From the NCBI GenBank assembly GCA_037157775.1, contig CP089982.1:13337788-13401787 (forward strand): DNA of 64,000 bases, given 5' to 3'. Below are positions 20,433-40,108 of this stretch, one piece after another; the first letter of the stretch is position 1; each line of letters opens with the position of its first letter. The DNA comes from Sorangiineae bacterium MSr12523 (lineage in GTDB: Bacteria > Myxococcota_A > Polyangia > Polyangiales > Polyangiaceae). The notes below the pieces were generated by a model. It did no database searches. It was given only the letters and a program-made list of their open reading frames with translations, and was not told where the DNA came from. Position numbers and translations under genes: made by a program.

Positions 20433-20489
20433 CTGCGTTATTTTTAGTCCATAACGCGCGAGTTTGGCCAATCGGGAAGCCCTAAATCC

Positions 20490-21660: not shown

Positions 21661-21969
21661 TTCGTGTGATCCGGGACTACACCATCCGGACACTCCAAGG
21701 AATCCGTAGGGCAGTCACGCTTCCTTATCTTTCGTGGAATGACACACATGAAAACGTCGAGTGCAGTTGTAGGGATCGCTTTGCATCCGCTCGCCGATGC
21801 CGTACCGGACCTAACCGTCACGCTTGGTTCGCGCGCGACGCCCGCCGGCGAATTCATGATTCGGCTCGCAGTAACCGCGAATTGGTCTTCGTTTCATTTT
21901 CTTTGATCGCAAATCGGATATCGCGACATTCACGGGGGGACACTTGCTCTTCTTTGGAGGCATCTCAAA
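21661..21969. other. Intergenic stretch, no gene seen
   Basis: About 310 bases between the divergent oxidoreductase and the PKD lipoprotein genes. It is richer in A/T than the neighbours, and the short frames in it lack codon bias and ribosome sites. GGAGGCATCT just before the ATG at 21970 is a plausible ribosome site for the lipoprotein. I see no strong dyad or repeat. Confidence 0.5.
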
Positions 21970-22911
21970 ATGACGATTTATTTTGGTAAGGTCGCTGCTT
22001 GTGCATTGCTTGGAACGCTGGTTTTGGTCGGCTGCAGCAACGACGACGATGACAATCAGGCGCCCACCGCCAATGCAGGGACGGCCCAATCCGTCAAAGT
22101 GAATCAGAAGGTGACGCTCGATGGATCGAAGAGCAAAGATCCGGACGGTGACAAACTCACGTTCAAGTGGGCCGTCACCAAGCAACCGCAGGGGAGCACG
22201 CTCAAGATCGAGGAAACGACGGACAAGCCGAGTTTGACGCCCGCCTTTCCCGGCGAGTACGAAATCGAGCTGACGGTGAGCGATGGACAGGCTTCCGGTA
22301 AGGCGACGGTGAAGGTTACGGCCACGCCCGAAGGTCAGAACGGAAAGCCGACGTCCAGGGCATTGGGACCCACCAAGGTCCTGGTGGGCTCCGACGTGGT
22401 GCTCGATGGTTCGCAGAGCTCCGATCCCGATCAGGGTGACGCGCTCACGTACAAATGGGCGCTGGGGACGAAGCCGGCGAACAGCAATGCGGCCTTCGCC
22501 GACACGGCGGCGGCCAAGCCGAAGTTCAAGGCCGATCTTGCCGGCGAATACATCGCTTCGCTCATCGTGAACGATGGCAAGGCGGACAGCGGCGCGGCCG
22601 AGGTGAAGATCAAGGCCGTGGCGACGAACACGAAACCGGTTGCCAATGCGGGCGCCGCGCAAAGCGTTGCGGTCAATGCCTCGGTCACGCTCGACGGCAG
22701 CGCGAGCTCCGACGCCGACCAGGGCGATGTGCTGACCTACAAGTGGACCCTCAAGTCCAAGCCGGCGGGCAGCGCCGCCGCGCTGAACGACGCCACCGCG
22801 AAGAAGCCCACCTTCACGGCCGACAAGGCGGGCGAGTACGCGATCGAGCTGGTGGTGAACGACGAGCTCGAAAACAGCGCGGCCGTCACCGTGAAGATCA
22901 CGGCGCAGTAA
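21970..22911 (+). CDS. Lipoprotein with three PKD/REJ-like Ig-fold repeats
   Basis: 313 residues. The signal ends in a lipobox-like VLVGCSND and an acidic DDDDN tether. Three repeats of about 90 residues follow, each starting with APTANAG / KPTSRALG / KPVANAG, then VTLDGSxSxDPDxGDxLTYKW and a closing GEYxxxLxVxDGxxxS strand. This is the PKD/REJ-type extracellular Ig fold, here made of nothing but repeats on a lipid anchor. The repeats are clearly related, repeats 2 and 3 the most alike. Probably a surface adhesion or spacer protein. Confidence 0.88.
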   Translation: MTIYFGKVAACALLGTLVLVGCSNDDDDNQAPTANAGTAQSVKVNQKVTLDGSKSKDPDGDKLTFKWAVTKQPQGSTLKIEETTDKPSLTPAFPGEYEIELTVSDGQASGKATVKVTATPEGQNGKPTSRALGPTKVLVGSDVVLDGSQSSDPDQGDALTYKWALGTKPANSNAAFADTAAAKPKFKADLAGEYIASLIVNDGKADSGAAEVKIKAVATNTKPVANAGAAQSVAVNASVTLDGSASSDADQGDVLTYKWTLKSKPAGSAAALNDATAKKPTFTADKAGEYAIELVVNDELENSAAVTVKITAQ

Positions 22912-22920
22912 CCCGGCGAA

Positions 22921-24231
22921 TTACGCGCCAAGCACGTATTCGTGCGAGGCTTGCACCAGGCGGCGGGCGCGCTCGAGATCGGCCTCGAGGCGCCCGCCGC
23001 GTTTGAGAACGCGACCCTCGACCAACACCGTGTCGACGTTGCCGGGGTGCGCTGCGAGCACGATGGCATCCGCGGGGGAACTCAGTGGTGCGAGGTTGAC
23101 GTCCGTGGCGCGGATCAAAAGAATGTCCGCGGCCTTGCCCGGGCTCAGTGAGCCGGTGCGGCGCTCCAAGCCCGTGGCCCGTGCCCCTTGCAATGTGGCC
23201 CAGCGCAGAACGTCGCGTGCGGAAACGCGCGCCTTACGCGACTCGAGTCGATCGCGCCGTGCGACGGCGAAGGCGGTGCGCATTTGGGTGAACATGTCAC
23301 CGCCGGCGGCCGTTTCGCTGTCGATGCTCAAACTGGGGGTGAGCCCGGCCGCCAACATGCGCCCCAGGACAGGCACGGCGAGGCCGTCCATCCCGAGCTC
23401 GATTTGCGCGGAGACCGACACGGTAACGCCGTGATCGGCCAAAAGCTTCAGCGCGTGGTCCGTGGCACCGGCGCCATGGACGACGGTGATGTCCGGGCGG
23501 AGCAAGCCGGCGGCGTGCATTCGCTCGATGCCTCGATTTTCTGGCCCCGGTTCGCCGACCGCGACATGCGTCGTAATGCGGACCCCGAGCTCGCGTGCGA
23601 GCGCGAAGTCCTCGGCCATGGCCACGTCGCTGCTGAAGTCCGGACCACTTGCGGCCATAGCCAAGGTGAGGAGCCCATCGTCGCTGGTGAACCGCTCACG
23701 ACGCAGCCTGCGAATGTCGGCCGAATGCCGTCGCGCCGCGGGATCGCTCCCCGGCGGCGGCTCGATGAACGTGCCACCATGGCCGAAGACGGCGCGAAGT
23801 CCCGAGTCGGCGAGTGCGGCGACGGCAGCATCCGCGTGGGCCGGCGAGTTCTGGATACGCGACCAATCGAGCAAGGTGGTGACGCCGCTGTCGATGGCCG
23901 TCAGCGCACCGAATAGCGTGCCGGCGTACACATCCTCCGGGCGCGTGCGTCGGCCGGCGGCAACCATAGCTTGCGCGAAATAGTCCCCGAGCGACCAATC
24001 GCCGCCACGGTGCCGTAGGGTCGTCTGCCACGTGTGGCGGTGCGTGTCGACGAAGCCGGGGAGCACCAGCATGCCGGAGGCGTCGAGGATCTCTGCATCA
24101 TCGGCCGCGAGCGAGGGACCGATGGCTGCGATCGTACCGTTCTCGACGAGGAGATCTCCATGTGGAAGGTCCGCCGCGGATTCGTCGGTGCGGACAATCC
24201 AGCCGCCGCGGATGAGGGTTCGTTGCGTCAT
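22921..24231 (-). CDS. Amidohydrolase (cytosine deaminase / chlorohydrolase type)
   Basis: 436 residues; AGGA ribosome site ten bases before the ATG. Metal-binding motif 1 is GFVDTHRHTWQTTLRH (HxH, about residue 66), and the later TTHVAVGE (about residue 220), VHGAGATD (about residue 249) and SIDSET (about residue 298) are the other metal/active-site regions of the TRZ/ATZ and SsnA-like amidohydrolases. The C-terminus GSLSPGKAADILLI is the usual return strand of the composite beta-sandwich. The family removes amino or chloro groups from heterocycles or hydrolyses related amides. An operator-like palindrome sits just upstream and a LysR gene precedes it in the same direction. Confidence 0.88.
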   Translation of the reverse strand: MTQRTLIRGGWIVRTDESAADLPHGDLLVENGTIAAIGPSLAADDAEILDASGMLVLPGFVDTHRHTWQTTLRHRGGDWSLGDYFAQAMVAAGRRTRPEDVYAGTLFGALTAIDSGVTTLLDWSRIQNSPAHADAAVAALADSGLRAVFGHGGTFIEPPPGSDPAARRHSADIRRLRRERFTSDDGLLTLAMAASGPDFSSDVAMAEDFALARELGVRITTHVAVGEPGPENRGIERMHAAGLLRPDITVVHGAGATDHALKLLADHGVTVSVSAQIELGMDGLAVPVLGRMLAAGLTPSLSIDSETAAGGDMFTQMRTAFAVARRDRLESRKARVSARDVLRWATLQGARATGLERRTGSLSPGKAADILLIRATDVNLAPLSSPADAIVLAAHPGNVDTVLVEGRVLKRGGRLEADLERARRLVQASHEYVLGA

Positions 24232-24260
24232 GATGGTAATTCCTCGTCGAAAAGGTTGAT

Positions 24261-24284
24261 AGAAAGCTTTATGAAAAGCTTTCT
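24261..24284. promoter_or_regulatory. Strong palindromic operator upstream of amidohydrolase
   Basis: AGAAAGCTTT-ATGA-AAAGCTTTCT is a perfect 10+10 dyad, 30-53 bases before the amidohydrolase start. Each half contains the self-complementary AAAGCTTT, which fits two dimers or a single large dimer of a repressor. It is unusually A/T-rich for this genome. Confidence 0.65.
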
Positions 24285-24333
24285 AAGTCGTAGATCGCCC
24301 GAGCCTCTTCGTCAAGCTCTCCAAGCGAATTGG

Positions 24334-25233
24334 CTAACGGCGACAGACCTCCGCGAGCATGTCGCGGAGCCAGCGTTGTGCCGGGTGCGCATCGTTGCGC
24401 CTGTGCCACGCGAGCACGAAGGTCGTGATGGGCAACGCCAGCGGTGGTTCGAAGACATGGAGCGGAAAGGCCGCGGCGGCGTGTTCCACCACGCTCTTCA
24501 TGAGCGTTGCGACCAGATCGGAGGAGGCCACGATGCCCGGCGCAGCGAACATGTGCGGCAGCGAAAGACCCAATCGCCGCGATAGTCCGAGTTCCGCCAG
24601 CTTCTCATCGACGTGGCCACGCCGGTCTCCCTCGGGAGAGACCAAGAGGTGCGGGTACGCGAGAAAGCGCTTCAACGTCACTTTCTTGGCCAAAAGAGGA
24701 TGACCCTCGCGCACGACGCTCACGAAGCGCTCCTGAAAGAGCGGCTGGCTGATGACATTGGTCCCCCAACGGGCCGGAACGCCCACCGCTGCGTGCGCGG
24801 CGCCGCTTTCGAGGAGCTCCTCGGCCTGCTGCCGATCGGTGAAGCCGCGCACGTGCACCACCACCCCAGGCGCCTCCACCTCGATGCGTCGGACGAGACG
24901 GGGCAGGACCACGAATGCGGGATGGTCCGAGAGCGCGAGGGTGAACGTCGCCTTCGAGGCCGCGGGCTCGAAGGCCTGTGTGAAATCGAGCGTGCGTTGG
25001 ATCTGCGCAAGGGCATCGGACAGCGGGGTACTGAGATCCAGCGCCCGCGGCGTGGGCTGCAGCCCGGTCGGACTGCGCACGAAGAGCTCGTCGTGAAAGA
25101 GCGCGCGCAGGCGAGAGAGCGCCGCACTCATCGCGGGCTGCGTCCGACCGATCCGCGCGCCCGCCCGCGTGACGTTGCGTTCGGCCATGAGCGCGTCGAA
25201 GGCGACGAGCAAATTGAGATCGATGCCGTGCAT
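24334..25233 (-). CDS. LysR-family transcriptional regulator (NodD/LinR-like)
   Basis: 299 residues from the ATG at 25233; ATGs two and ten codons earlier (25239, 25263) are possible. The start MHGIDLNLLVAFDALMAERNVTRAG with GRTQPAMSAALSRLRALFHDELFVR is typical of the NodD/LinR-like branch. The effector domain follows (ATFTLALSDHPAFVVLPRLV). It is divergent from the SnoaL/quinone-reductase/DoxX operon, with a LysR-type box between, so that operon is the most likely target. The amidohydrolase gene, about 100 bases downstream in the same direction, may also belong to the regulon. Confidence 0.92.
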   Translation of the reverse strand: MHGIDLNLLVAFDALMAERNVTRAGARIGRTQPAMSAALSRLRALFHDELFVRSPTGLQPTPRALDLSTPLSDALAQIQRTLDFTQAFEPAASKATFTLALSDHPAFVVLPRLVRRIEVEAPGVVVHVRGFTDRQQAEELLESGAAHAAVGVPARWGTNVISQPLFQERFVSVVREGHPLLAKKVTLKRFLAYPHLLVSPEGDRRGHVDEKLAELGLSRRLGLSLPHMFAAPGIVASSDLVATLMKSVVEHAAAAFPLHVFEPPLALPITTFVLAWHRRNDAHPAQRWLRDMLAEVCRR

Positions 25234-25260
25234 ATCCATGTCGTGGATGCGCAAGCATAT

Positions 25261-25273
25261 CAATTATCGATTG
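25261..25273. promoter_or_regulatory. LysR box candidate in divergent promoter
   Basis: CAATTATCGATTG is a near-palindrome (CAAT/ATTG with a 5-base centre), an AT-rich island between the LysR start (25233) and the SnoaL-like gene (25345). Position and form suit a LysR recognition site. Confidence 0.45.
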
Positions 25274-25344
25274 GGAAGATGTCGGGGCCGTACCTAGCTT
25301 CCTTTCGTCGGCAGCCGTCGACCTCGAAAAACGGAGTCCCCATC

Positions 25345-25806
25345 ATGCGTGCGACGACCCCAAACGGGCTCGCGGCGGGCGATCTGCAGATCGTGCAGAC
25401 GTTCTACCGCGCGTTCAGCGACAAGAAACCCGAGCTTCTCGACGAGGCGGTGACGCCGGATTGGGAGGACATTCCTCTGGCACCCGGTCAGGGCCCGGGC
25501 CCCGATGGCCTCAAGCCGATTCTCCAGTCCATCGTGGCGGCCTTCCCGGACCTGCGCATCCACGTGGAGGACGTCATTGGTTCTCACGGTCGCATTGGCG
25601 TTCGCGCCAAAATCACGGGCACGCACCGCGGCGAGTTCTTCGGGATTGCCGCGACGAACCGGCCCATCTCGGTGGCCCTCCACGAATTCCACGAGATGGA
25701 CAACGGCCGCATCAAGCGCACATGGCACCTCGAGGATTGGTTCGGAATGCTTCTCCAAATCGGAGCGTGGCCTCCGGCTCGCTCCCTTCACCCGGAGAGT
25801 GCGTGA
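25345..25806 (+). CDS. SnoaL-like polyketide-cyclase / NTF2-fold protein
   Basis: 153 residues with a GGAG ribosome site. The start DLQIVQTFYRAFSDKKPELLDEAV, the middle GLKPILQSIVAAFPDLRIHVEDVIGSHGRIGVRAKITGTHRGEFFG and the end DNGRIKRTWHLEDWFGMLLQIG are characteristic of the SnoaL/ester-cyclase NTF2-like family. Such proteins catalyse small ring closures or hydrolyses or simply bind ligands; the specific reaction is not readable. Its stop overlaps the start of the next gene (TGATG), so the two are translationally coupled. Confidence 0.88.
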   Translation: MRATTPNGLAAGDLQIVQTFYRAFSDKKPELLDEAVTPDWEDIPLAPGQGPGPDGLKPILQSIVAAFPDLRIHVEDVIGSHGRIGVRAKITGTHRGEFFGIAATNRPISVALHEFHEMDNGRIKRTWHLEDWFGMLLQIGAWPPARSLHPESA

Positions 25807-26723
25807 TGAAGGCGCTTCGCCTGCACGGCTATCATGGCGAGCAACACATCTCCTTGGACGACGTTGCCGCACCGACTCCGGGGCCCGACGATGTCTTGGT
25901 GCGCGTGGCCGCTGCCGCGGTCAATCCGCTCGATGCAAAGCTCGCTCGGGGCTACTTCCGAGACGTCTTCCCGCTAAAGCTCCCTTACGTCGTGGGAACC
26001 GATCTCGCGGGCACGGTCGAATCGGTGGGGGCCCGCGTGACCGCGTTTCGCCCGGGCGATCGCGTCATGGCCCGAATCGAAGCGACGATGGGAGGAGCCT
26101 TCGCGGAGTGTGCCGTCGTACCTTCGTGGCTCGTCGTCCCCGTGCCGACGCAGTTTGGCTTCGAGGAGGCCGCCGCCTTCGGCACCATCGGAGGCACGGC
26201 GTGGCAAGGGCTGTTCGAGGTCGCCCAGATCAACGCATCGACGCGCCTGCTCGTGACGGGCGGCGCCGGCGGCGTCGGAGGAATGGCCGTGCGGCTCGCC
26301 GCCTCCATCGGTGCGCGGGTTTTTGCGACGGCGCACGCCCGCGGCCTCGAGTTCGCAAAACGACTCGGCGCCGAGCGCGTATTCGATGCCGAGGGCAAGC
26401 TCGATCTCGACGACGTCGACGTCGTCTTCGACACGGCGGGCGGTGAAGGGCAGCATCGGCTGTTCGACGTCATCCGCGACGCGGGAATGCTCGCATCCAT
26501 CGTGCAACCGCCGGACGGAGATATGGGGCGCACCCGTGGCATCGACGCGCGCTTCGTTTTCCACGAATCGAATGGTTCGCGCTTCGCCGTGGCCACGAAT
26601 TACTGCGCGGCGCACCAGATCAAGCCGTCGATCGACTGCGTGATGCCGCTCGAGGCCGGCCCGGAGGCCATCGCGCGGGTGGCCTCGGGAAAGGCTCGCG
26701 GAAAGGTGGTGTTGCAGCCATGA
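25806..26723 (+). CDS. Quinone reductase / zinc-independent MDR-family oxidoreductase
   Basis: 305 residues. GroES-like N-terminal domain (VLVRVAAAAVNPLDAKLARGYF) and a Rossmann domain with LLVTGGAGGVGGMAVRLAASIGARVFAT. The cysteines of zinc-type alcohol dehydrogenases are missing, which places it in the NADPH:quinone oxidoreductase branch. It should reduce quinones or alpha,beta-unsaturated carbonyls with NADPH. First four bases are shared with the preceding stop region and its own stop overlaps the DoxX start. Confidence 0.9.
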   Translation: MKALRLHGYHGEQHISLDDVAAPTPGPDDVLVRVAAAAVNPLDAKLARGYFRDVFPLKLPYVVGTDLAGTVESVGARVTAFRPGDRVMARIEATMGGAFAECAVVPSWLVVPVPTQFGFEEAAAFGTIGGTAWQGLFEVAQINASTRLLVTGGAGGVGGMAVRLAASIGARVFATAHARGLEFAKRLGAERVFDAEGKLDLDDVDVVFDTAGGEGQHRLFDVIRDAGMLASIVQPPDGDMGRTRGIDARFVFHESNGSRFAVATNYCAAHQIKPSIDCVMPLEAGPEAIARVASGKARGKVVLQP

Positions 26724-27175
26724 ACCTGAACGCACTGCGCGCAAACCCCGCCGTGGCCCTTCTCGTACTTCGCGTGGGCCTGGGCATGAGCCTGTTCTTG
26801 CGGCACGGCGTGGAGAAGCTCACGGGCTTCTCCGAAATGGCCGCGCGCTTTCCCGATCCATTCCACATGGGTCGCGTGCCGAGCCTCGTCATCGCACTCT
26901 TGTCGGATGGCATTGCCTCGCTGCTCATCGCGGCGGGGGCGGGAACGCGGCTGGCCGCTGCCTATGTGGCAGGCAACGTCGCGGTGGCGTGGCTCTTCGT
27001 GCACCACCTGGAGTTCTTTGGTCCTCAGGCCGAGCACGGAGAGCTCTGCGCCCTCTACGTCTGCGGTGCCTTGACGCTCGCCCTCTCGGGCGCGGGCCCC
27101 TACAGCATCGATGCGATGATGCGCCGTCGGAGCGATGCAACCGTAGGGTCGGCTGCCAACGCGGCCCGACTCTAG
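26720..27175 (+). CDS. DoxX-family membrane protein
   Basis: 151 residues, four predicted transmembrane segments (for example VALLVLRVGLGMSLFLRHG, LVIALLSDGIASLLIAAGAG, AYVAGNVAVAWLFVHHLEFF). LRVGLGMSLFLRHGVEKL is the usual DoxX opening. DoxX proteins are associated with redox stress and thiol/quinone metabolism. Coupled (ATGA) to the quinone-reductase gene, so the operon probably deals with a reactive compound sensed by the divergent LysR. Confidence 0.88.
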   Translation: MNLNALRANPAVALLVLRVGLGMSLFLRHGVEKLTGFSEMAARFPDPFHMGRVPSLVIALLSDGIASLLIAAGAGTRLAAAYVAGNVAVAWLFVHHLEFFGPQAEHGELCALYVCGALTLALSGAGPYSIDAMMRRRSDATVGSAANAARL

Positions 27176-27196
27176 GATGCACCTTCAGATGGTGCC

Positions 27197-27286
27197 TGGC
27201 GGAGAGAAGGGGATTCGAACCCCTGGTACCCTTGCGGGCACACCTGATTTCGAATCAGGCACCTTCGGCCTCTCGGTCATCTCTCC
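27197..27286 (-). tRNA. tRNA-Ser (CGA)
   Basis: On the minus strand the sequence forms a complete long-variable-arm tRNA: acceptor GGAGAGA/TCTCTCC, D-arm with GACCGAGAGGCC, anticodon stem CCTGA/TCAGG around loop TTCGAAA (anticodon CGA), variable arm TGTGCCCGCAAGGGTACC, T-arm GGGGTTCGAATCCCC. A GCCA end is encoded (27197-27200). This decodes UCG serine codons. The gene is in the same direction as, and 41 bases downstream of, the bestrophin-like gene. Confidence 0.97.
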
Positions 27287-28501: not shown

Positions 28502-31500
28502 ATGGCTGCGTCTGACGCAGAATCGCTCTATCAGCTTTTCCAAGCATGTGTGCGACGGTATCCGCAACGCATCGCCGTGCGCTTCGGGGCCCAGGCGCTG
28601 ACCTATTCGGAATTGCACGAGCGGGCCGAGTTCCATGCGGCGAGGCTGCTGGATCTCGGTGTGACGCCGGGCATGCCCGTTGCGATGCTGACGGAGCGTT
28701 CCCTGGAGATGATCGTGGGCATTTGGGCCATTTTGCGGATTGGAGCCGCTTACGTGCCCATCGATCCCGAGTATCCGCAGGAACGGATTCAATCGATTCT
28801 GCGCGACAGTGGGGCGCTCGTTCACCTGACGGTGCCGTTTCTCGCGCAGGACGCGCCACCGGGCCGGGCAGTCCTTCCACCCGCGGGGCCTGCCGCGGGG
28901 CCGGCGTACATCATCTACACGTCGGGCTCGACGGGTGCGCCAAAGGGGGTTGCGGTGACGCATCACAATGTGATCCGAACCGTGGCTCGACCCAATTACA
29001 TCGATATCGATGCAAAGGACTGCCTTTTGCAATTGTTGAACTACGCCTTCGATGGGTCGGTGTTCAACATTTTCGGCGCACTGCTCAACGGCGCCACGTT
29101 GGTGTTGGCCCAACGGGACGATGTTGCCGATCCCGAGAGGCTGGCCGCGGTGATCCGCGATTCCGGCATCAGCGTGTTGGTCCTTACGACGGCGTTGTTC
29201 AATGTGTGCATCGACTACGATCCCTCGATTTTCGATTCGGTGCGAAAAGTGCTGTTCGGCGGTGAGCAGGCTTCTGTCCCACATGTGAAAAGGGCATTCG
29301 AGCATCTCGGGCCGGGAAAACTGGTGCACGTATACGGCCCGACCGAAACCACGGTGATCTGCAGCGCCCACACGATCGAGCGCGTTGGGGAGACGGTTCC
29401 CATTGGAAAAGCCGTGGCCAATACGCGCCTCTACGTTCTCGATGCAAATCGAGAGCCGAGTCCGATCGGCGAGCCCGGTGAGCTGTACATCGCAGGGGAG
29501 GGGGTGAGCCAAGGCTATTGGAGGGATGCGGAGCTAACGCGTCAGCGGTTCGTGCCGGATCCGTTCGTCGCCCGAGGCGAGGCCAACACGCTGCCGCTGA
29601 TGTACAAGAGTGGCGATCTGGTGAAGTGGCAAGAGGACGGGGAGCTCGTTTTCATCGGGCGGGTCGACCAGCAGGTGAAGGTGCGAGGATTCCGAATCGA
29701 GCTCGGAGAGATCGAAACGCGCTTAATGGAGCATCCGCAGGTGAAGCAATGCGTCGTGGTGCTGAAGGCGCAAAAGCTCATTGCATTCGTTACGACGGCG
29801 GAGGTCGTGGACGGCGATGCCTTGAAGGCGCACCTTCGTACGACCTTGCCTTATTACATGATTCCCGAGCGGTTCGTGCACCTGCCGCGCTTGCCCCTCA
29901 CCGCGAATGGAAAGGTCGATCGACAAAAGTTGGCGAGCGATGCCGGCGAAGGGGCGCACCCCGGTCCGCGCGTGCCGGCGCGTACGGCGCGCGAGGAGAC
30001 CTTGCATCGGATTTTCGCCGAGGTGCTCGGCGTACCCGAAGTGGGCGCGGACGAGGGCTTTTCCGACATTGGGGGCAATTCGCTCAACGCGATCACGTTG
30101 GCAGCGCGGTTGAAGCGCGCGGGATTCTCCGTGACGACGCGGGACATTCTGCATTGTCAAACCATCGAGCGCCTGTTGGCGGAGGTGTTGCCCCTGCCAG
30201 CACGGGAGCCCGCCGCTTCGCAGGATACTGGCACGGGGCTGCGACCGTTGGAGCAACTCGACGTCGAGGCCGTGCGGCGCCTTTTGGATCCGTCGCTCGC
30301 GCACAATGACCAAATCCTCACCAGCACGGTCGTGGCGAAAGAGTATCCGCTCTGCGCAATGCAACAATTGCAAATTGGCTTCGAGACGCCCGCCTGTTTT
30401 GCCATGCATCCGCTGAAAGGCGCGGTGGAACTACCTGCCCTGCAGAGAGCCTATGCCGCTTTGATCGCGCAGCACGGATTGCTGCGAAGCGCGGCCGTCG
30501 AATCGGGCGAGCGGCACGTTTGGCGCGAATACGAACACCGCGCGGAGGAGTTGCCGTCGATTCCGGTGATCGACCTCGCGGAGTACGCGGGCTCCACGTC
30601 CGCCGTGCAGGCGCGGGTCGAGCAGGTCGCTACGCGCGTGTACAAGGGGGCGCAGATACTCCACCAGCTCGTGTTGGTGCGGCGAAACGGCAACGAGCAC
30701 TTCCTGGCGTGGATCGTAAGCCACGTGATCCTCGACAAGGTCACGCAAGAGATTCTCACGCGTCACCTGATGCGACACTACGAGGATGCGCTTCAAGGAC
30801 GACCCCCGCGCACCGAGGCTTCCCCGTCGTTCGAAGATTACACGCGCCAATTGGCCCGCGGTCCGCAGGGCATTGGCATGCAGCACATCGTGCAGTCGTT
30901 CCGTCTTCGCAAGTTTTACGAAGCCAAACAAACCGCCAAGCGCTTGGTCACGGCGACGGCGTCGCACTCGGCGACCAATTTCAATATCGTGCTACCCCTG
31001 CGGAGCGCATGGCAAGTGGAGAATACCCTGGAGGTGGCACTCACTGTTCATGCCAAGGGCCTCCAACGCTACCTGCAGATGGATTCATTGCCCCTGCTGT
31101 TCGTGACGGAGGGGCGGCAGTACGAAGGCCGGCGATATTACGATACCGTGGGTGAATTCACGGATGCCGTACCCCTGCTCGTGGATGCGCGCTTCTCGTC
31201 CCAGGAGATCACCGGGTCCGTCGTGGAGCGGATGGACCTGCTGAAAAAGCACAATTTGAACTTCCTGCACCTGCTGTTGGATCCCGCCGCGCGGGCGCTG
31301 TGGCCCGAGGTGGCCCGGCTGATGGACGCGGGAGAAGGGTTCGAGGACTTCGATATCTTGATGTTCAATTTCCTGGGCAACGTGGACGACACCCCCGTCG
31401 AGGAGACGTGTCGGGTGGAGCCGCACCCATTGCCGATTCAAACCCTGCTCAATGGCATTACCACCGTATGTTCCGATACGCTGGTTTGCTCATTTCGCAC

Positions 31501-31567
31501 GAGCTGCGCGGTGGACGTCGCTCGAATTCGAGCATGCTTCGAACATGCCGCGTCGGAGTTGCCCTAA
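28502..31567 (+). CDS. NRPS, initiation module A-T-E(like)
   Basis: 1021 residues: adenylation domain about 8-490, carrier domain about 495-570 and a condensation/epimerase-superfamily domain about 610-1015. No N-terminal condensation domain, so it should load the first amino acid. Adenylation motifs are intact: YTSGSTGAPKG (about 139), FDGSVFNIFGAL, VYGPTETTVIC, GELYIAGEG, YKSGDLVKW, VKVRGFRIELGEIE, NGKVDR. By-eye specificity residues D-G-F-V-L-G-V-V-I-K resemble isoleucine-type codes. The carrier serine sits in GGNSLNA. The last domain has E-type features (EGRQYEGRR, TVGEFTDAVPLLVD, FNFLGNVDD), but the HHxxxDG motif reads SHVILDK, so epimerase activity is uncertain. The next NRPS starts 3 bases after the stop. 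Confidence 0.95.
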   Translation: MAASDAESLYQLFQACVRRYPQRIAVRFGAQALTYSELHERAEFHAARLLDLGVTPGMPVAMLTERSLEMIVGIWAILRIGAAYVPIDPEYPQERIQSILRDSGALVHLTVPFLAQDAPPGRAVLPPAGPAAGPAYIIYTSGSTGAPKGVAVTHHNVIRTVARPNYIDIDAKDCLLQLLNYAFDGSVFNIFGALLNGATLVLAQRDDVADPERLAAVIRDSGISVLVLTTALFNVCIDYDPSIFDSVRKVLFGGEQASVPHVKRAFEHLGPGKLVHVYGPTETTVICSAHTIERVGETVPIGKAVANTRLYVLDANREPSPIGEPGELYIAGEGVSQGYWRDAELTRQRFVPDPFVARGEANTLPLMYKSGDLVKWQEDGELVFIGRVDQQVKVRGFRIELGEIETRLMEHPQVKQCVVVLKAQKLIAFVTTAEVVDGDALKAHLRTTLPYYMIPERFVHLPRLPLTANGKVDRQKLASDAGEGAHPGPRVPARTAREETLHRIFAEVLGVPEVGADEGFSDIGGNSLNAITLAARLKRAGFSVTTRDILHCQTIERLLAEVLPLPAREPAASQDTGTGLRPLEQLDVEAVRRLLDPSLAHNDQILTSTVVAKEYPLCAMQQLQIGFETPACFAMHPLKGAVELPALQRAYAALIAQHGLLRSAAVESGERHVWREYEHRAEELPSIPVIDLAEYAGSTSAVQARVEQVATRVYKGAQILHQLVLVRRNGNEHFLAWIVSHVILDKVTQEILTRHLMRHYEDALQGRPPRTEASPSFEDYTRQLARGPQGIGMQHIVQSFRLRKFYEAKQTAKRLVTATASHSATNFNIVLPLRSAWQVENTLEVALTVHAKGLQRYLQMDSLPLLFVTEGRQYEGRRYYDTVGEFTDAVPLLVDARFSSQEITGSVVERMDLLKKHNLNFLHLLLDPAARALWPEVARLMDAGEGFEDFDILMFNFLGNVDDTPVEETCRVEPHPLPIQTLLNGITTVCSDTLVCSFRTSCAVDVARIRACFEHAASELP

Positions 31568-31570
31568 CCA

Positions 31571-34500
31571 ATGGCATCGCCTGGCAAGTATCCGCTCACG
31601 CCCTCGCAGCAGCGGATGTGGATCATTCACCGACTGAATCCGGGCAGTACCGCCTACAATTCGCCCGTCGTACGGACCATCCGCGGAAACGTGGATCCCC
31701 AGCGGCTGGAACGCGCCTTTCTGCAGTTGGTGCAGCGGCACGAGCAGCTCCGTGCGGCGTTTTGCCTGCGCGGCACCGAGCCGGTGCAAGAGATTCACGA
31801 TGTTTCGTTCTTCGAGTTGACCTACGTCGAGGGCGTGGCCGCCGAAGACGTCCCGGAGAAGATTTCCGATTTCATAAGGCCTTTTTCGCTGGAGCAGGCA
31901 CCGCTGCTGAGGGCTGCGGTCTTTCGTCTGGACGCGGTCTCCGAGTACGTCCTCGTATTGGATCTGCACCATATCGTTTCCGATCTTCGGTCGGAGGACA
32001 TCCTCGTTCGTGATTTGTTTCGGCTGTACCACGGAATGCCGCTTCCCGAGCTTGGTGCATCTTACAAGGCGCACGCGGAGTGGCTAGCGGAGCATGCGAC
32101 CGTTGCCCAGTTGCGGAGCGAGGAGGACTTTTGGCTCTCGAAATTCGCGGGTGAGCTTCCCGTATTGCAACTTCCGGCCGATCGTCAAAGGCCCGCCGTT
32201 TTCGATTTTCGCGGCACGATTCGCCACTTCCCCATGGGGAAAGAACGGTCCGATGCGTTGCGCGCGTTTTCGGCGTCGCAGGGTATTTCGCTGCGCGACC
32301 TCGCGCTTGCGGCCTTGTTCGTGTTGCTGGGCAAATACAGCTTTCAAGAAGACATCATCGTCGGTGTGCCCCACGAGGTTCGGCCTCGGGACGATATGGC
32401 GGAGCTCGTGGGGCTGTTCATCAACACATTGCCCATTCGCGCGCACGTTCATCCGGACAAGGTCGCGCGAACGTTGCTGGCCGAGGTTCGCGACGATGCG
32501 CGCGAGGCCCGTCGGCACTTTCTCTACGATGTGCGATATCTGGTGGAAAAGCTGCAGCCGCCGCGGGACCCGAGCCGCAATCCCTTGTACGACGTTTTGT
32601 TTTTCCATCATCGCCTGCAAACGGCAACCTACGGAGAACTCGAGGTGGCGCCCCGCGAGTTCGTCCACGACAAGGCGGAGGTGGACCTTACCTTCGGTCT
32701 GCTGGAGACCGATGACCAACTGAGTTTTACCATCGAGTATGCCACGGCCTCGTTCGAGGCCTCGACCGTCGTCCGGATGGCCGATCACTACCGGCGCGTG
32801 CTCGACGTGCTCGTTGACTCGCCCGATGCGCGTCTGGGCGACATGGACATTCTCTCGATCGAGGAGCGGCACCAACTGGCGTCGTTCAATGATACGGCGC
32901 GCAGCTATCCTTGGAGGACAATCGATCGGCTCTTCGAAGAGCAGGTCGCGCGAACACCGGATCATCCGGCGATGCGATATCGGAACGAGACGATCGACTA
33001 TCGCGAGCTCGACGCGAGGGCCAACCGTGTGACCAATCTGCTGCGGGCGCGTGGCGCCGCCCCGGGCGACGTCGTCGCGCTGCTGGCCCAGCCCTCGCTC
33101 GAGATGATCGCCGCCCTGCTGGGCATTCTCAAGGCCGCGTGCGCCTACCTGCCCATCGAGCCGAGCTTCCCGGTCGAGAGGATCGCGCACATGCTCCGAT
33201 CGAGCGATGCGAAGTTGTTGCTGACGCAACTTCCTGCGCCCTCGCAGCTACGAAACGTCGAGATCGTCGAGCTGGGTCAGGCCGAACGCTACCCCGCCGA
33301 CGCATGGCAAACGCCCGAGGAACCTGACCCGGCGGCACCCGCATGCGTGTTTTACACCTCCGGTTCCACGGGAAATCCGAAGGGTACCCTGGTGCGGCAC
33401 TACAATGTCGTCCGGACCCTCGCGAATGCCAATTATCTTACGGTGCATCCGTCGGACCGGCTGCTCCAATTGGCAAGTTACGCCTTCGATGCCTCGCTGT
33501 TCGAAGTGTTCGGAGCTCTGCTTCATGGCGCCACCTTGGTCGTGGCCGACGAGGATTCTCGGCGAGACCTGGGCCGCATCGCCACGCTGCTTGGCGACGA
33601 ACGCGTATCCATCGCCTTCATGACGGCGGCACTGTTCAATGCCATGGTGGACGAGAAGCTCGAGGCCATGACCGGATTGCGCAAGATCCTGACGGGCGGG
33701 GAGCGCGCCTCGGTCCATCACATGCGCAAAGCCGTGGCGCAGCTCGGTCGCGGCAGGTTGCTGCACATGTACGGCCCCACGGAGAGCACCGTCTTTGCGA
33801 CGTATTACCCCGTTGATCATGTGACGGAGGACGCGGCCGGCATCCCCATTGGATACCCGTTGTCGAATACCAGGGTCTCCATTCTGAATGGCCGCTCCCC
33901 CGTGCCCGTGGGCGTGGCAGGCGAGGTATGCATCGCAGGGGATGGCCTGGCCGCGGGGTATTTGGACGAAGCGCTCACGGCGCAAAAATTCGTCGTCATC
34001 TCCGGCGAACGCGTCTACCGCACCGGCGATATTGCCAAGTGGCGCGACGACGGCACCATCGAATTCATCGGCCGAAAGGATCGGCAAACGAAGATTCGCG
34101 GCATGCGGATCGAGCCCGAGGAGATCGAGGCCGCGCTCCAGAGCCACCCCGGGGTGAAGGCGGCGGTAGTGCTCGTTCGCCAAGATGGTCGGGGCGACAA
34201 ATATTTGCAGGCTCTCTATGCCTGTATCCGCGGTGGCGCTCCCACGCCCGACGAGCTGACCGCCTATGCGAGTCGCCGCTTGCCCTCCTACATGGTCCCG
34301 ACCTCCCTCGCCATGGTGGAGGCTTTTTCCCTCGATGCCAATGGCAAGATTGACCGCCGGCGTTTGCCATTGCCCGCACTGATAGAGACGACGGACGGCC
34401 CAGTGCATCCTCCCGTCACGGAGGACGAGAAGGCGATTGCGGCGATTTGGAAAGAGCTATTGAATCCACCGTGCGTGGATATCCATCGGAGCTTTTTCGA

Positions 34501-37500
34501 AAGCGGTGGCCACTCGTTGACCGCGGCAATTTTGTCCAGTCGACTCGAGCAAGCGTTGCACGTGGCCATTCCGCTGCGTGACATCTTCGAGCATCCCACC
34601 ATTGCGGGGCTGGCCACGCGCCTCTCCAGCAATCCGAGGGGCCAGGCGCACCATTGGAGCCCGGTGCCGAGCAGCACGAGGCAAGCGTATTATCCATTGA
34701 GCTTTTCCGAGCGCATGGTGTACGTGCACCAACATGCGACCAAGGGAAATCATGGCTACCACTCCATTTTTCCCATGCTCGTCGAGGGCACTCTCGACGC
34801 CGATCGACTGGAGCGCGCCCTTCGCGCCCTCGTGCAGCGGCACGAGGCATTTCGGAGTGCGTACGTGCTGCAAGACGGCGTGCCCGTCAAAAAGGTCGTG
34901 GACTGTGTCGATTTTCATCTCGTTCGCGAAGAAGGAACGGCGGCCGACGTTCCGGCGATCGCGTCGATACTTCGGGAAGCCTATGACCTTGCCACCCCAC
35001 CGCTCTTCCGGGCGTGCCTGTTGACCGTAGACCCCGAGCGGCACGTGCTCGTGCTGGCCAATCATCATATCGTGTCGGACGGCGTCACCGAAGCGCTGCT
35101 CATGCGCGAAATTGGGCAGCTCTATCGGGACGAGTCATTGGACCCGTGCCCCTTGCAATACCGAGATTATGCCGTCTGGCAGCAACGCCAATGGGAGGAA
35201 GGCCAGTATCGGGCGCAGGAGCTACACTGGTTGGAGCACCTGAAAGGGCCATTGCCCGTCTTGGAGCTGCCGCTCGATCGCCCGCGGCCTTCCGAAGCGA
35301 GCTTCGAGGGCCATACCGTGGCCGTTCGACTGAGCGCGGAACGAACGCGCCAATTGCGCGAGTGCGCGGCGGCGCACCAAACGACGTTGTTCACGCTCCT
35401 ATTTGCGGCGTACACCGTGCTGCTGCACAAGTACTCCGGGCAAGACGACCTGATCGTGGGCGTGCCCGTCGCCAACCGCACGCACCCCGATCTGCAGGCG
35501 ATTGCCGGGATGTTCGTCAACATGATTCCCTGGAGGACCCGTCCCACCCCGGACATTCCCTTCGCGGATTACGTCCAAGGCATCAAAATGGCCGCGGTAT
35601 CCGCGTTCGAATGCCAGGACTACCCCTTCGAACGCCTCGTGCATGCGTTGCAAGGGGAGAGGGACCCGTCGAGAAATCCTATTTTCGATACCATTTTCGT
35701 ATTTCAAACCACCGGGCCGGCCGTCCTAAACATCGAAGGTTTGCACATTGTGCCGTATCCGCTGCCCGACGCGTCGGCCAAGGTGGATTTGACGGTCGAG
35801 GCGTTCGAGTACGCCAACGAGATTCATCTCTCCTTTACATATGCCACCGCCCTTTTCGAAGAGAGCACCATCCGGCGCATGGCGGAGTCCTTCGTGTGTC
35901 TGCTGTCGGACATCGTGCTGCAGTCGGAAAAGCCGCTCCGCTCCCTCGCGTGGCTCACGGAGGCCGATGCGACCCGACTCGTTCATGGATTCAATCCTCC
36001 CGCCACGGCGTACCCCAAAGAGAAATCGCTGTATCAACTTTTCGAATCGCGCGTGCAGCAGCAACCGCGGCATATTGCCGTGCGTTTTGGCGACGCGGCC
36101 CTGACCTACGAAGAACTGCACGCGCGTGCCGAGTCCCTTGCCGAACGGCTGTTGGATCTCGACGTGATCCCGGGCACGCGCGTTGCGATGCTGACGGAGC
36201 GCTCACTGGAGATGGTCGTCGGCATCTGGGCCATTCTAAGGATAGGTGCCACGTACGTTCCCATCGACCCCGGCTACCCGCAGGAGCGAATTCAATCGAT
36301 CGTGCGCGACAGCGGCGCACGCGTATGCCTGACGACCGCCATGGTCCACGCGGAGGGTGCGCGCGCAGGCCGGTCCAACGTTCCGCCGGTGGGGCCGCCC
36401 AGTGGACCTGCGTACATCATGTACACCTCCGGTTCGACGGGTGCACCCAAGGGAATTGCGGTTTCGCATCACAATGTGATTCGAACGGTGGTGCAAACGA
36501 ATTACATCGCCATCGAGCCTGGGGATAGAATTCTGCAGCTCTCGAATTATGCCTTCGACGGCTCCGTGTTCGACATTTTTGGAGCATTGCTCAACGGCGC
36601 CACGTTGGTATTGCCCCGAACGGAGGACATCACCGATCCCGAGCGATTGGCCGCGGTGATCCGGGAGTCCGGTATCAGCGTGTCGTTCATCACGACGGCC
36701 CTGTTCAACGCGTGCATCGACCACGATCCATCGATTTTTGGCCCGCTGCGGAAGGTGTTGTTCGGCGGCGAACAAGTTTCCATCCCACACGTGAAGAAGG
36801 CGTTCGCCCATCTGGGGCCGGACAAACTCGTGCACGTGTACGGCCCGACGGAAACCACGGTGTTCAGCAGCGCCCACCTCATCGAGCGGGTTGGAGAAAT
36901 GGTCCCCATTGGAAGGCCACTGGCCAACACGAGGGCCTACGTCTTCAATGCAAACCAAGAGCTGAATCCCATTGGCGTGCCCGGTGAGCTGTACATCGCA
37001 GGGGAGGGGGTGAGCCAGGGGTATTGGAACGACGCGGAATCGACGCCGCAGCGGTTCGTGCCCGATCCATTCGTGCCCGGTGCGGTGATGTACAAGACGG
37101 GGGATCTGGTGAAATGGCAAGACGATGAGGAGCTCCTCTTCATCGGGCGAGCCGACCTGCAAGTGAAGCTGCGAGGGTTCCGAATCGAGCCCGGGGAAAT
37201 CGAGGCGCGGTTGCTGGAGGATCCGCGGGTGCAGCAATGTGCCGTCGTGGTGAAGGACCATCGGTTCATCGCCTATTGCACGGCCTCGGAGCCTCTGGAC
37301 GATGCAGCGCTGCGAGCGCATCTCGAGAAGACGCTGCCCTATTACATGATTCCCCATCGGTTCGTGCAATTGCCGCAGCTGCCCCTTACCCCCCAAGGGA
37401 AAATCGACCGGCGAAAGCTCGCGACGCTCGCGGAGCCGCGGACCCGTTCCGACGCGGTCGTCGAGCCACGCTCACCCGTGGAGCAGTCGCTGGCCGCCGT

Positions 37501-39055
37501 ATGGTGCGAGGCTTTCGGGCTCGATGCGGTGAGCGTGGACGACAATTTCTATGCACTGGGAGGGCACTCGCTGAAGGCGCTGCAGATTGTAAGCCTGTTG
37601 CAGAAGCGCGGGCAGGTGCTCTCGGTAAGCGATCTCTTTCGCTACCCGACCATCCGCGAGCTCGCCACGGGGGTCGTGCGGCAGCTGGAAACCAAGCCGA
37701 ACACCGGTGCCATTGCGAGCACGCACGATGGCATTCCCTTGTCGGCCGTCCAATATCGCTTTTTCCAGCGAGGCTTGGTGGACCGCAATGTCTTCAATAG
37801 CCCATTCCTCGTAGCGTTGAACGAACCCGTCGCACCCGCCGTCATCCAGCAGGCCCTGCACGGAATCCTGGAACGGCATCGCATCCTCACGGTTCGTTTC
37901 GAAGAGCATGTCCCCGGTCGCTGGCGGCAGCATTACGGGATGCCCGACCCCCGGCGGTACTTCGCGCGGGTCGATCTCTCGAGCATCCCGCCGTCGGAGC
38001 ACGACGCCACCATCTCCGCGCGCAGCGCCGCGCTTCAGGGCGAATTCGCCATCACCGAAGGGCATTCGTGCAAGGTATTGCTCTTCGAGAATTACCAGCA
38101 TCGGCGCAAGCAGGTCCTTCTCTTTCTGTTTCATCATTTGGTGTTCGATGGCATCTCCTGGGACATCTTCCTCGACGAGTTTCAACGCCATTGCCGAAAC
38201 CAGCCCATCCCGGCCAACCACGCGACCTCGTATGCTGAATGGTGTTTGCACTTGGGGCGCTACGCAAAGGGGGAATCCTTCGCGGAAGCGGCCGCCCATT
38301 GGCAGGGCGTGGCGAGGCGTGGGCAGCCCTTCTTACCCGATGAAACCGCCCGGCCGTATGCGCTGCAGAAGGAAATGGTCCACCACATCACGCGGCCTCT
38401 TCGCAGCGCCGACGATGTATCCAGCCTGCATCGTGCGGTCCAGTCCTACCAAGCGAATACCTTTCATCTACTGTTGGCCGCATTTTGCTGCGCCTGCCGC
38501 GATCTCCAGCCACGGACGTCGCTGCCGCTCTACGTGATGAGCAGCCAGCGGGAATCCTTTTTCGACGACGTCGACCTGGCGCAATCGATAGGCTTTTTCG
38601 CGGGCGCTTATCCTATTTGCATCGACATGTCCCCCGAGGGCGACGTTCCGGCGGTCGCGCAGGACGTCAAGCACACGCTCCTCGGTGTCCCCAAAGGAGG
38701 GCTCGACTATTTTGCCATGCGATTCATGCCGCCCTTGGCGGGACGGTACGAAGGACTCGACCACCCGTACCCCATGTTGTTTCACTACGTGAATCACCAG
38801 GACCGTGCACCGGGTGACTTTTGCACCCCGCTGCACTTGCCGGTGGGGCTGACCCACTCGCCGGACAACCCCTCGGCGTACCTCGTGAATGTAACGGCCA
38901 CGCTCGATGCGGATGGCCTGCAATTGACGATATATCACAGCCAGGCTCACTTCCGGGCCGACACCATCGAGGAGCTTTCCAGAGCCTTCGAACGCCACCT
39001 GCAACGCCTCGTCCAGCACCTGCCAGCGGACGACCATCAGAGCGCCGCCCAATGA
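31571..39055 (+). CDS. NRPS, two elongation modules C-A-T-C-A-T with terminal E-like domain
   Basis: 2494 residues. Condensation about 1-435 (HHIVSDL near 133), adenylation about 443-945, carrier about 950-1030 (GGHSLTA), condensation about 1040-1475 (HHIVSDG near 1165), adenylation about 1486-1965 (YTSGSTGAPKG near 1618), carrier about 1975-2045 (GGHSLKA), then an epimerase-like domain from about 2056. Specificity residues by eye: D-A-F-F-L-G-M-V-F-K (module 2) and D-G-F-F-L-G-V-V-F-K (module 3), both branched-aliphatic in type (Ile/Val). The last domain keeps HHLVFDGISW, VPKGGLDY and IGFFAGAYPI but has SSQRES where E domains have EGHGRE. No thioesterase or reductase follows, so release of the peptide is unexplained. 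The GT17 gene overlaps by four bases. Confidence 0.96.
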   Translation: MASPGKYPLTPSQQRMWIIHRLNPGSTAYNSPVVRTIRGNVDPQRLERAFLQLVQRHEQLRAAFCLRGTEPVQEIHDVSFFELTYVEGVAAEDVPEKISDFIRPFSLEQAPLLRAAVFRLDAVSEYVLVLDLHHIVSDLRSEDILVRDLFRLYHGMPLPELGASYKAHAEWLAEHATVAQLRSEEDFWLSKFAGELPVLQLPADRQRPAVFDFRGTIRHFPMGKERSDALRAFSASQGISLRDLALAALFVLLGKYSFQEDIIVGVPHEVRPRDDMAELVGLFINTLPIRAHVHPDKVARTLLAEVRDDAREARRHFLYDVRYLVEKLQPPRDPSRNPLYDVLFFHHRLQTATYGELEVAPREFVHDKAEVDLTFGLLETDDQLSFTIEYATASFEASTVVRMADHYRRVLDVLVDSPDARLGDMDILSIEERHQLASFNDTARSYPWRTIDRLFEEQVARTPDHPAMRYRNETIDYRELDARANRVTNLLRARGAAPGDVVALLAQPSLEMIAALLGILKAACAYLPIEPSFPVERIAHMLRSSDAKLLLTQLPAPSQLRNVEIVELGQAERYPADAWQTPEEPDPAAPACVFYTSGSTGNPKGTLVRHYNVVRTLANANYLTVHPSDRLLQLASYAFDASLFEVFGALLHGATLVVADEDSRRDLGRIATLLGDERVSIAFMTAALFNAMVDEKLEAMTGLRKILTGGERASVHHMRKAVAQLGRGRLLHMYGPTESTVFATYYPVDHVTEDAAGIPIGYPLSNTRVSILNGRSPVPVGVAGEVCIAGDGLAAGYLDEALTAQKFVVISGERVYRTGDIAKWRDDGTIEFIGRKDRQTKIRGMRIEPEEIEAALQSHPGVKAAVVLVRQDGRGDKYLQALYACIRGGAPTPDELTAYASRRLPSYMVPTSLAMVEAFSLDANGKIDRRRLPLPALIETTDGPVHPPVTEDEKAIAAIWKELLNPPCVDIHRSFFESGGHSLTAAILSSRLEQALHVAIPLRDIFEHPTIAGLATRLSSNPRGQAHHWSPVPSSTRQAYYPLSFSERMVYVHQHATKGNHGYHSIFPMLVEGTLDADRLERALRALVQRHEAFRSAYVLQDGVPVKKVVDCVDFHLVREEGTAADVPAIASILREAYDLATPPLFRACLLTVDPERHVLVLANHHIVSDGVTEALLMREIGQLYRDESLDPCPLQYRDYAVWQQRQWEEGQYRAQELHWLEHLKGPLPVLELPLDRPRPSEASFEGHTVAVRLSAERTRQLRECAAAHQTTLFTLLFAAYTVLLHKYSGQDDLIVGVPVANRTHPDLQAIAGMFVNMIPWRTRPTPDIPFADYVQGIKMAAVSAFECQDYPFERLVHALQGERDPSRNPIFDTIFVFQTTGPAVLNIEGLHIVPYPLPDASAKVDLTVEAFEYANEIHLSFTYATALFEESTIRRMAESFVCLLSDIVLQSEKPLRSLAWLTEADATRLVHGFNPPATAYPKEKSLYQLFESRVQQQPRHIAVRFGDAALTYEELHARAESLAERLLDLDVIPGTRVAMLTERSLEMVVGIWAILRIGATYVPIDPGYPQERIQSIVRDSGARVCLTTAMVHAEGARAGRSNVPPVGPPSGPAYIMYTSGSTGAPKGIAVSHHNVIRTVVQTNYIAIEPGDRILQLSNYAFDGSVFDIFGALLNGATLVLPRTEDITDPERLAAVIRESGISVSFITTALFNACIDHDPSIFGPLRKVLFGGEQVSIPHVKKAFAHLGPDKLVHVYGPTETTVFSSAHLIERVGEMVPIGRPLANTRAYVFNANQELNPIGVPGELYIAGEGVSQGYWNDAESTPQRFVPDPFVPGAVMYKTGDLVKWQDDEELLFIGRADLQVKLRGFRIEPGEIEARLLEDPRVQQCAVVVKDHRFIAYCTASEPLDDAALRAHLEKTLPYYMIPHRFVQLPQLPLTPQGKIDRRKLATLAEPRTRSDAVVEPRSPVEQSLAAVWCEAFGLDAVSVDDNFYALGGHSLKALQIVSLLQKRGQVLSVSDLFRYPTIRELATGVVRQLETKPNTGAIASTHDGIPLSAVQYRFFQRGLVDRNVFNSPFLVALNEPVAPAVIQQALHGILERHRILTVRFEEHVPGRWRQHYGMPDPRRYFARVDLSSIPPSEHDATISARSAALQGEFAITEGHSCKVLLFENYQHRRKQVLLFLFHHLVFDGISWDIFLDEFQRHCRNQPIPANHATSYAEWCLHLGRYAKGESFAEAAAHWQGVARRGQPFLPDETARPYALQKEMVHHITRPLRSADDVSSLHRAVQSYQANTFHLLLAAFCCACRDLQPRTSLPLYVMSSQRESFFDDVDLAQSIGFFAGAYPICIDMSPEGDVPAVAQDVKHTLLGVPKGGLDYFAMRFMPPLAGRYEGLDHPYPMLFHYVNHQDRAPGDFCTPLHLPVGLTHSPDNPSAYLVNVTATLDADGLQLTIYHSQAHFRADTIEELSRAFERHLQRLVQHLPADDHQSAAQ

Positions 39056-39939
39056 AAATATTCGAGTTTTGCCCCTTCTTCAATGAACGCAAAATCGCAG
39101 AGCTCAAGGTCAAAGAGGCCGGCTACTGGATCGACGAGCTTCATTTCTGCGAAGCGAACAAGACGTTCAGCTACGAGGACAAGCCCTTCAACTTCGATAC
39201 GGCGCTCGTGGGCCGCAAAGTGAAATACCATCGCCTGAGCGCCGAAGAGCACTTCGAGCCCCTGCGCGCCGACCCATCGTATTACCGCCCGGATACGTGC
39301 AAGGCCGAGCTCTTCGATGATTGGTATTGGCACCTGCTCGCGCACAACGTTGGATATGGCAATGAGGCCGTACAGCGCAATCATTGCCGTCTTCTCAAGG
39401 ACACCGTGGGCGACGACGACATCGTCATTCTTTCCGACGTCGACGAATTCCTGGATAGCCGCTTGGCCGATCGCATCGTCGACGCCGTGAAGCGCCATCA
39501 GGTCATCACCGTGCGACTCCACTTTTCGGTGTTCTACCTGAATCTCTTTTGCGACAAGAGCCACGGTGCGAACGATTTCAGCTACCGCACCTACGCGATG
39601 ACCGGTCGCTATTTTCGAAAGATGCCCTTCACCGCCGACTACCTTCGCAAAAAGGGCATTTCCGAGGGCCTCGTGCGCACCGTGCACTGTCCCGAGGGCT
39701 TCATGGGCTTTCACCATTCATGGTTGCAACATGCAAGCAATGCCTTCGACAAGCTGAAGGCCTTCGAGGCCAATGTCGCGGACAAAAGACTCATCCGAAG
39801 CGACTTCGCCGAACAATGTATCCGCGACATGCGGCTGCCCTATATCGACGCCAACCTGTACGTCGCCAACGACAAGCCGTTCCTGCGCTCCGTTTTGGAG
39901 TCCGACACGGAAGGCCTCTGGTTCGGCGACGCGCGCTAA
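39052..39939 (+). CDS. GT17-type glycosyltransferase (N-acetylglucosaminyltransferase family)
   Basis: 295 residues starting within the last codons of the NRPS (ATGA overlap), so it is made with it. The start KIFEFCPFFNERKIAELKV, the stretch IVILSDVDEFLDSRLADRI (metal/nucleotide-binding D-V-D at about residues 130-132) and the histidine-containing GFHHSWLQHASNAFDKLKAF match the GT17 family, whose best-known member adds bisecting GlcNAc to mannose. The bacterial proteins are mostly uncharacterised. Translational coupling suggests that the peptide or a lipid/sugar partner is glycosylated; acceptor and donor cannot be read from the sequence. No signal peptide, so cytoplasmic. Confidence 0.85.
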   Translation: MKIFEFCPFFNERKIAELKVKEAGYWIDELHFCEANKTFSYEDKPFNFDTALVGRKVKYHRLSAEEHFEPLRADPSYYRPDTCKAELFDDWYWHLLAHNVGYGNEAVQRNHCRLLKDTVGDDDIVILSDVDEFLDSRLADRIVDAVKRHQVITVRLHFSVFYLNLFCDKSHGANDFSYRTYAMTGRYFRKMPFTADYLRKKGISEGLVRTVHCPEGFMGFHHSWLQHASNAFDKLKAFEANVADKRLIRSDFAEQCIRDMRLPYIDANLYVANDKPFLRSVLESDTEGLWFGDAR

Positions 39940-39992: not shown

Positions 39993-40021
39993 TTCTAGGT
40001 CGCAAGTGCCGGAAATTTCAG

Positions 40022-40108
40022 CGGAGAGAGAGAGATTCGAACTCTCGGTACCCTTGCGGGCACACTTGATTTCCAATCAAGCACCTTCGGCCACTCGGTC
40101 ATCTCTCC
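40022..40108 (-). tRNA. tRNA-Ser (GGA)
   Basis: Minus-strand class II tRNA: acceptor GGAGAGA/TCTCTCC, D-arm with GACCGAGTGGCC, anticodon stem CTTGA/TCAAG around loop TTGGAAA (anticodon GGA), variable arm TGTGCCCGCAAGGGTACC, T-arm GAGAGTTCGAATCTCTC. Unlike the other serine tRNA here, no CCA is encoded after the discriminator. It decodes UCC/UCU. The two genes are the same strand and share most of their sequence. Confidence 0.97.

Follow-up and report, generated by a model that had tools for sequence, protein, structure and literature searches.

According to an excerpt of PMC8949500, glycopeptide antibiotic synthetases carry near their last thiolation (T) domain an X domain, a condensation-family domain with a broken HHxxxDG motif, which recruits cytochrome P450 enzymes and is followed by a thioesterase (TE). 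The same excerpt describes the cystomanamides, which are glycosylated lipopeptides, as nonribosomal peptide synthetase (NRPS) products of myxobacteria, and in enacyloxin synthase (PDB 6cgo), as the title of that entry states, the chain is released by a condensation-family domain, with no TE involved. Here we describe a three-gene operon at positions 28502-39939, plus strand, of a 64,000-nucleotide stretch (the window) of Sorangiineae bacterium MSr12523, whose genome is one contig of 13.4 Mb (CP089982.1; the window covers positions 13,337,788-13,401,787). Its open reading frames (ORFs) encode two NRPS proteins, ORF1 (A-T-C*) and ORF2 (C-A-T-C-A-T-E'), and a GT17-like glycosyltransferase (GT); A denotes adenylation, C condensation, and C* and E' two terminal domains of the condensation superfamily. 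The operon probably makes an undescribed sugar-bearing peptide. With a probability of about 0.45, we read it as a self-contained, horizontally transferred NRPS-GT line in which a short aliphatic peptide would be assembled, E' would replace the TE and the coupled GT would add a sugar.

Central to this reading is the conservation of the gene pair, which an earlier note on this DNA, made from the sequence alone, had proposed to seek in other genomes. In all 15 cases, the gene of a close homologue of the window GT (about 50% identity or more, the window's own counted) immediately follows an NRPS gene with T-E' at its end, and the order T-E', then GT, is constant in every locus. At the junction the NRPS and GT genes overlap in 11 loci (by 4 bp in nine, by 14 bp in two) and are separated by 2, 10, 18 and 40 bp in the other four. 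The 15 loci belong to the window's genus and to four named phyla, their carriers being the window genome, one congener, Mycobacterium montefiorense, Chitinophaga solisilvae, Fontibacillus panacisegetis, a gammaproteobacterial metagenome-assembled genome (MAG), seven other Paenibacillaceae genomes, and plasmids of Paenibacillus sp. IHB B 3084 and Eleftheria terrae. No other neighbouring gene, partner NRPS genes included, is common to the loci across lineages. Neither of the two findings that the earlier note had named as speaking against it was made: the GT is co-conserved with the NRPS, and a conserved TE just outside homologous loci was not seen, the sole TE found lying inside the MAG NRPS; a single-sequence search with that TE as query returned nothing further from the loci's ORFs.

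The GT gene is rare. Homologue searches of genome contigs returned six loci, and two of 59 relatives were positive, the window genome being one of them. In the 198 genomes of the mycobacterial genus there were two matches at E 1e-3 (one at E 7e-4 over 85 residues), in the 294 genomes of the Chitinophaga family three, two of them distant, and in 295 genomes of the Paenibacillaceae, the Fontibacillus family, eight. Three plasmid records had a homologue, one of them distant; none was found in phage records. Profile searches gave one match in 258 for the MAG's class, one in 217 for the mycobacterial phylum, one in 173 for the window's class and two in 178, one distant, for the Chitinophaga phylum, and in all four the strong match was an already known genome. 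The occurrence of C* matches that of the GT: when up to four candidates per Paenibacillaceae genome (E 1e-50 or better) were scored, seven of the 295 genomes reached 764-912 bits and the next best 240, and all seven are among the eight GT carriers. The GT-less congener G001 gave no C* at E 1e-40.

The three elements have also diverged together. Pairwise identities of the GT correlate with those of E' (r 0.95; 15 rows, 105 pairs) and of C* (r 0.94; 12 rows, 66 pairs), and none of 2000 permutations reached values as high, although permutation does not remove shared ancestry. The gene unit groups the window's genus with the mycobacterium and Chitinophaga, against the Paenibacillaceae, unlike the species tree, and thus seems to move as one. 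That one unit is rare yet widely spread suggests that its product is useful to its carriers.

The earlier note had called the ends of both NRPS proteins E-like (E, epimerization), but the two terminal domains differ: that of ORF2 is related to E domains though it lacks their EGHGRE motif, and that of ORF1 falls in a different clade. A tree was built from 58 condensation-superfamily domains: C (14), E (14), E' (15), C* (12) and three C*-like rows. It included part of the loci's C domains, the cut-off C* rows of loci G756 and G614 were omitted (G614 was added again with a longer sequence), and the program gave a long-branch warning. In this tree C* and E' are separate clades, and E' is the sister clade of E (support 98/92). 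All 15 E' domains keep the two histidines of HHxxxDG and 13 keep the whole motif, while EGHGRE is present in none of them and in all 14 ordinary E domains. TIGR01720 matched the window E' at 47.8 bits, below its cut-off of 74.2. The closest relatives of solved structure are E domains, including those of PvdL and of the bacitracin, gramicidin and tyrocidine synthetases. Foldseek likewise ranked E domains first for an AlphaFold model of E' (mean pLDDT, the predicted local distance difference test, 63.8), but TM-scores near 0.4 and a root-mean-square deviation near 17 indicate that the lobes are not placed, so this comparison lends weak support. C* carries (H/S)HxxxD(R/K) in all 12 cases and stands apart from E; the C-terminal domain of ORF1 is not an ordinary E domain. 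Searched against the PDB as a single sequence, the window C* best matched AmbE (7r9x, E 3.9e-5). An assignment to the AmbE type was rejected, since 7r9x was no longer the best match in a profile search (E 4.6e-4), and the same chemistry is not supported.

Support for the GT17 label is weak in the case of the window protein, which scored 23.9 bits against PF04724 (Glyco_transf_17; curated cut-off 26); of the eight NRPS-linked GTs scanned, the window's among them, four pass the cut-off. NRPS-linked GTs form one group (support 100/100) in a tree with three distant GTs. Near the four distant GT loci (L015, L016, L047 and L055; the weak matches G101 and G551 excluded) no NRPS was seen, the sequence of L015 covering just 2.1 kb upstream of its GT. 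Sequence and profile searches of the PDB gave no useful solved relative.

The observation in the earlier note is confirmed: three coupled genes are present, with a GT start inside the NRPS stop. The GT frame is open from a TTG at 38821, the start that agrees with the homologues is the ATG at 39052, and the overlap with ORF2 is 4 bp. In Pfam, ORF1 matches AMP-binding, PP-binding and, in part, Condensation, and ORF2 has three Condensation, two AMP-binding and two PP-binding matches; A, T and C domains exceed the curated cut-offs. As had been claimed, no TE or reductase domain was found by Pfam in the ORFs of the operon. The three window A domains have codes that are Ile/Val-like by specificity-code tables (DGFVLGVVI, DAFFLGMVF and DGFFLGVVF), and the last A domain ahead of E' has a code starting with DAF or DGF in 13 of the 14 loci where it can be read, the last A domain of the mycobacterial locus being unreadable.

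In the pathway that we infer, ORF1 would load one branched aliphatic residue and ORF2 would attach a second and a third, so that the last T domain would carry a chain of three residues. E', with the histidines of HHxxxD kept and EGHGRE lost, would handle the T-bound chain instead of a TE, and the translationally coupled GT17-like enzyme would glycosylate it, either T-bound or freshly released. Given the Ile/Val-like codes, a hydroxyl group is probably absent from the side chains of the window peptide, and the sugar would then be placed on a chain end. The earlier interpretation, a candidate glycopeptide pathway without a release domain, is partly supported.

Comparison with described systems places this proposal. 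As in glycopeptide antibiotic synthetases, whose product is also sugar-bearing, the last T domain is followed by a condensation-family domain that would work with a separate tailoring enzyme (excerpt of PMC8949500). Those synthetases, in the same excerpt, join seven residues and have an X domain with a broken HHxxxDG, P450s and a TE, whereas here HHxxxDG is mostly kept and the operon has no TE. The cystomanamide line uses an FkbH domain to load glycerate (excerpt of PMC8949500); no FkbH was found in the operon ORFs. For release without a TE, 6cgo is the precedent that its title offers, and among the matches of the E' model it ranks lower than the E domains; unlike 6cgo, E' is an E-family relative at the NRPS's own end, and release by E' is our proposal. 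A more specific version, rather improbable in our estimate, is that E' transfers the peptide from the T domain to an acceptor that the GT provides, either a sugar or a glycosylated molecule. This would be a new mode of ending nonribosomal synthesis, with glycosylation and release joined in a single linked step and a TE dispensable. No NRPS pathway with a GT17 enzyme was found among the literature matches listed, which agrees with what the earlier note had supposed; cluster databases and most subscription papers lay outside that search. The cluster class is recognisable by three marks (C*, T-E' and the GT17-like gene) in very different bacteria, the locus points to two condensation-superfamily clades, and with three genes product release by TE-less NRPS lines becomes testable.

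Several observations weigh against this reading. Beside the site that corresponds to the E motif, C* has an acidic residue, E in four of 12 and D in eight, followed by G, and it could therefore still be an epimerase. The Chitinophaga ORF1 lacks an A domain. In G728, the eighth Paenibacillaceae GT carrier, the C*-like match is weak (163 bits), and the MAG gave no C* at E 1e-40. The MAG NRPS (L050, 4931-12403) is A-T-C-A-T-TE-T-E', with an internal TE, and the code of its last A domain, DFWNIGMVH, is Thr-like and would give a side-chain hydroxyl. Finally, the AlphaFold model of the window GT has a mean pLDDT of 40.2, too low for a fold search or for reading a GT-A fold.

Unlikely, though to be taken seriously, is the alternative that E', and perhaps C* too, is an epimerase with a changed acid residue that passes its chain to a further NRPS or TE elsewhere in the genome. 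The sister position of E' to E and the E domains that are its best solved relatives would fit, as would the 112 condensation-domain matches across the genome, from which it follows that partner NRPSs exist. Set against this are the loss of EGHGRE from every E', the first Glu of that motif being the catalytic residue of E domains, and the absence of any partner NRPS gene conserved beside the loci across lineages. We regard as doubtful, too, that E' acts like an X domain as a docking platform bringing the GT to the T-bound peptide, release being left to a TE encoded elsewhere or to slow hydrolysis. Tight genetic coupling of E' and GT would suit such a role, and the X domain is a described condensation-family platform beside the last T domain; X domains, however, have a broken HHxxxDG (excerpt of PMC8949500), while that of E' is intact in 13 of 15 cases, the histidines are never lost, and no TE follows in the window.

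A GT that acts on a non-peptide acceptor, for example envelope or lipid, and is carried along for self-protection is very unlikely: distant relatives do occur without an NRPS, but, NRPS genes aside, the GT is the one gene that stays with the NRPS in all lineages, and it mostly overlaps it. An ordinary NRPS beside an unrelated open frame, for which the weak Pfam score of the window protein might speak, is extremely unlikely and was rejected in view of the pairing of all 15 close homologues with T-E', the shared divergence and the junction overlaps. The features on which the NRPS-GT reading rests are collected in Table 1.

Table 1. Genes, domains and bordering tRNA genes of the NRPS-GT locus, in window positions
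Feature	Position	Strand	Basis
tRNA-Ser(CGA), left border of inserted stretch	27197..27286	-	tRNA scan, congener comparison
ORF1, A-T-C* NRPS protein, 1021 aa	28502..31567	+	ORF list, translation, Pfam
A domain of ORF1, code DGFVLGVVI	28502..29953	+	Pfam; code read by hand
T domain of ORF1, GGNSL in translation	29987..30208	+	Pfam, translation
C* domain, a separate clade within the condensation superfamily; motif SHVILDK	30332..31564	+	tree
ORF2, C-A-T-C-A-T-E' NRPS protein, 2494 aa	31571..39055	+	ORF list, translation, Pfam
First C domain of ORF2, motif HHIVSDL	31577..32890	+	domain scan, tree
First A domain of ORF2, code DAFFLGMVF	32900..34390	+	code read by hand
First T domain of ORF2	34421..34636	+	Pfam
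Second C domain of ORF2, motif HHIVSDG	34679..35995	+	domain scan, tree
Second A domain of ORF2, code DGFFLGVVF	36005..37444	+	code read by hand
Second T domain of ORF2	37478..37699	+	Pfam
Terminal E' domain; HHLVFDG retained, MSSQRE in place of EGHGRE	37724..39028	+	alignment, tree
GT17-like protein, 295 aa; invariant D129, D131, HHSW 221-224	39052..39939	+	homologue comparison
tRNA-Ser(GGA), right border of inserted stretch	40021..40108	-	tRNA scan, congener comparison

The position of A-T-C* varies among the loci. It is a separate upstream gene in six (as T-C* only in Chitinophaga), is fused to a longer upstream NRPS in Fontibacillus and G600, and lies downstream of the GT in G756 and G614; in G757 it is found at matching contig ends, in Eleftheria it is convergent, and in G728 and the MAG it was not found. 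The mycobacterial C* is on another contig, of 6.8 kb, as A-T-C* followed by C-A-T-C-A to the contig end, which is the order of the window. ORF2 of several Paenibacillaceae begins with an apparent C-domain end (weak matches in Fontibacillus, G600 and G614; four Condensation stretches in G796), and an ordinary E domain is also present in ORF2 of the Paenibacillaceae with this start and of Eleftheria.

At the window locus, 12.7 kb separate the two tRNA-Ser genes, with the operon inside, and the congener G002 has the identical layout. In G001 the operon is absent from the syntenic place and the two tRNA-Ser genes are 346 bp apart (L093, 66-153 and 500-588). They lie there on opposite strands, the GGA gene being reversed, while in the window and G002 the minus strand carries the two of them, and no G001 match to window positions 19507-27193 reaches 150 bp, so that the difference exceeds the operon. 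Because the GGA gene is reversed and the left flank differs, the operon difference is not one clean insertion. No integrase was seen among the flanking ORFs scanned. GC content is 0.57-0.64 in the operon bins, 0.65-0.71 on the right side and 0.60-0.68 on the left.

Ten flanking ORFs, chosen by hand and in some cases overlapping one another, contained no TE, MbtH, phosphopantetheinyl transferase or exporter, which bears out, for these ORFs, the absence of the last three noted earlier; the rest of the 13.4 Mb genome was not searched for a phosphopantetheinyl transferase, MbtH or stand-alone TE. Their matches were an oxidoreductase, a PKD protein, an amidohydrolase, a SnoaL protein, a sulfatase and a two-receiver response regulator, with four of the ten unmatched, and there is therefore no obvious partner gene beside the operon.

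Within the operon, the A-domain regions 28519-29929 (ORF1) and 35981-37434 (last ORF2 module) cross-match, each being 75-77% identical to the other's G002 counterpart, which suggests copying between these modules. On the Paenibacillus plasmid (L053) the large NRPS is split over two overlapping frames (11474-16309 and 16198-20004) and may therefore be broken or misread. A further NRPS of three Paenibacillaceae genomes (L072/L073, L074/L075 and L076, in G766, G719 and G729) runs A-T-E, then three C-A-T modules, and ends in a C*-like domain (SHTIFDYMS) with no TE after the last T domain, as here; unlike the window, it has three A domains in the large protein and the motif SHxxxDY, and its stretch contains no GT. 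Downstream, in G766 and G719, an ORF that by eye is major facilitator superfamily transporter-like overlaps this NRPS by 4 bp and is followed by an aminotransferase-like ORF. In M. montefiorense (L011, 3523-6338), a class II tRNA-synthetase gene and then a PPE-family gene follow the GT.

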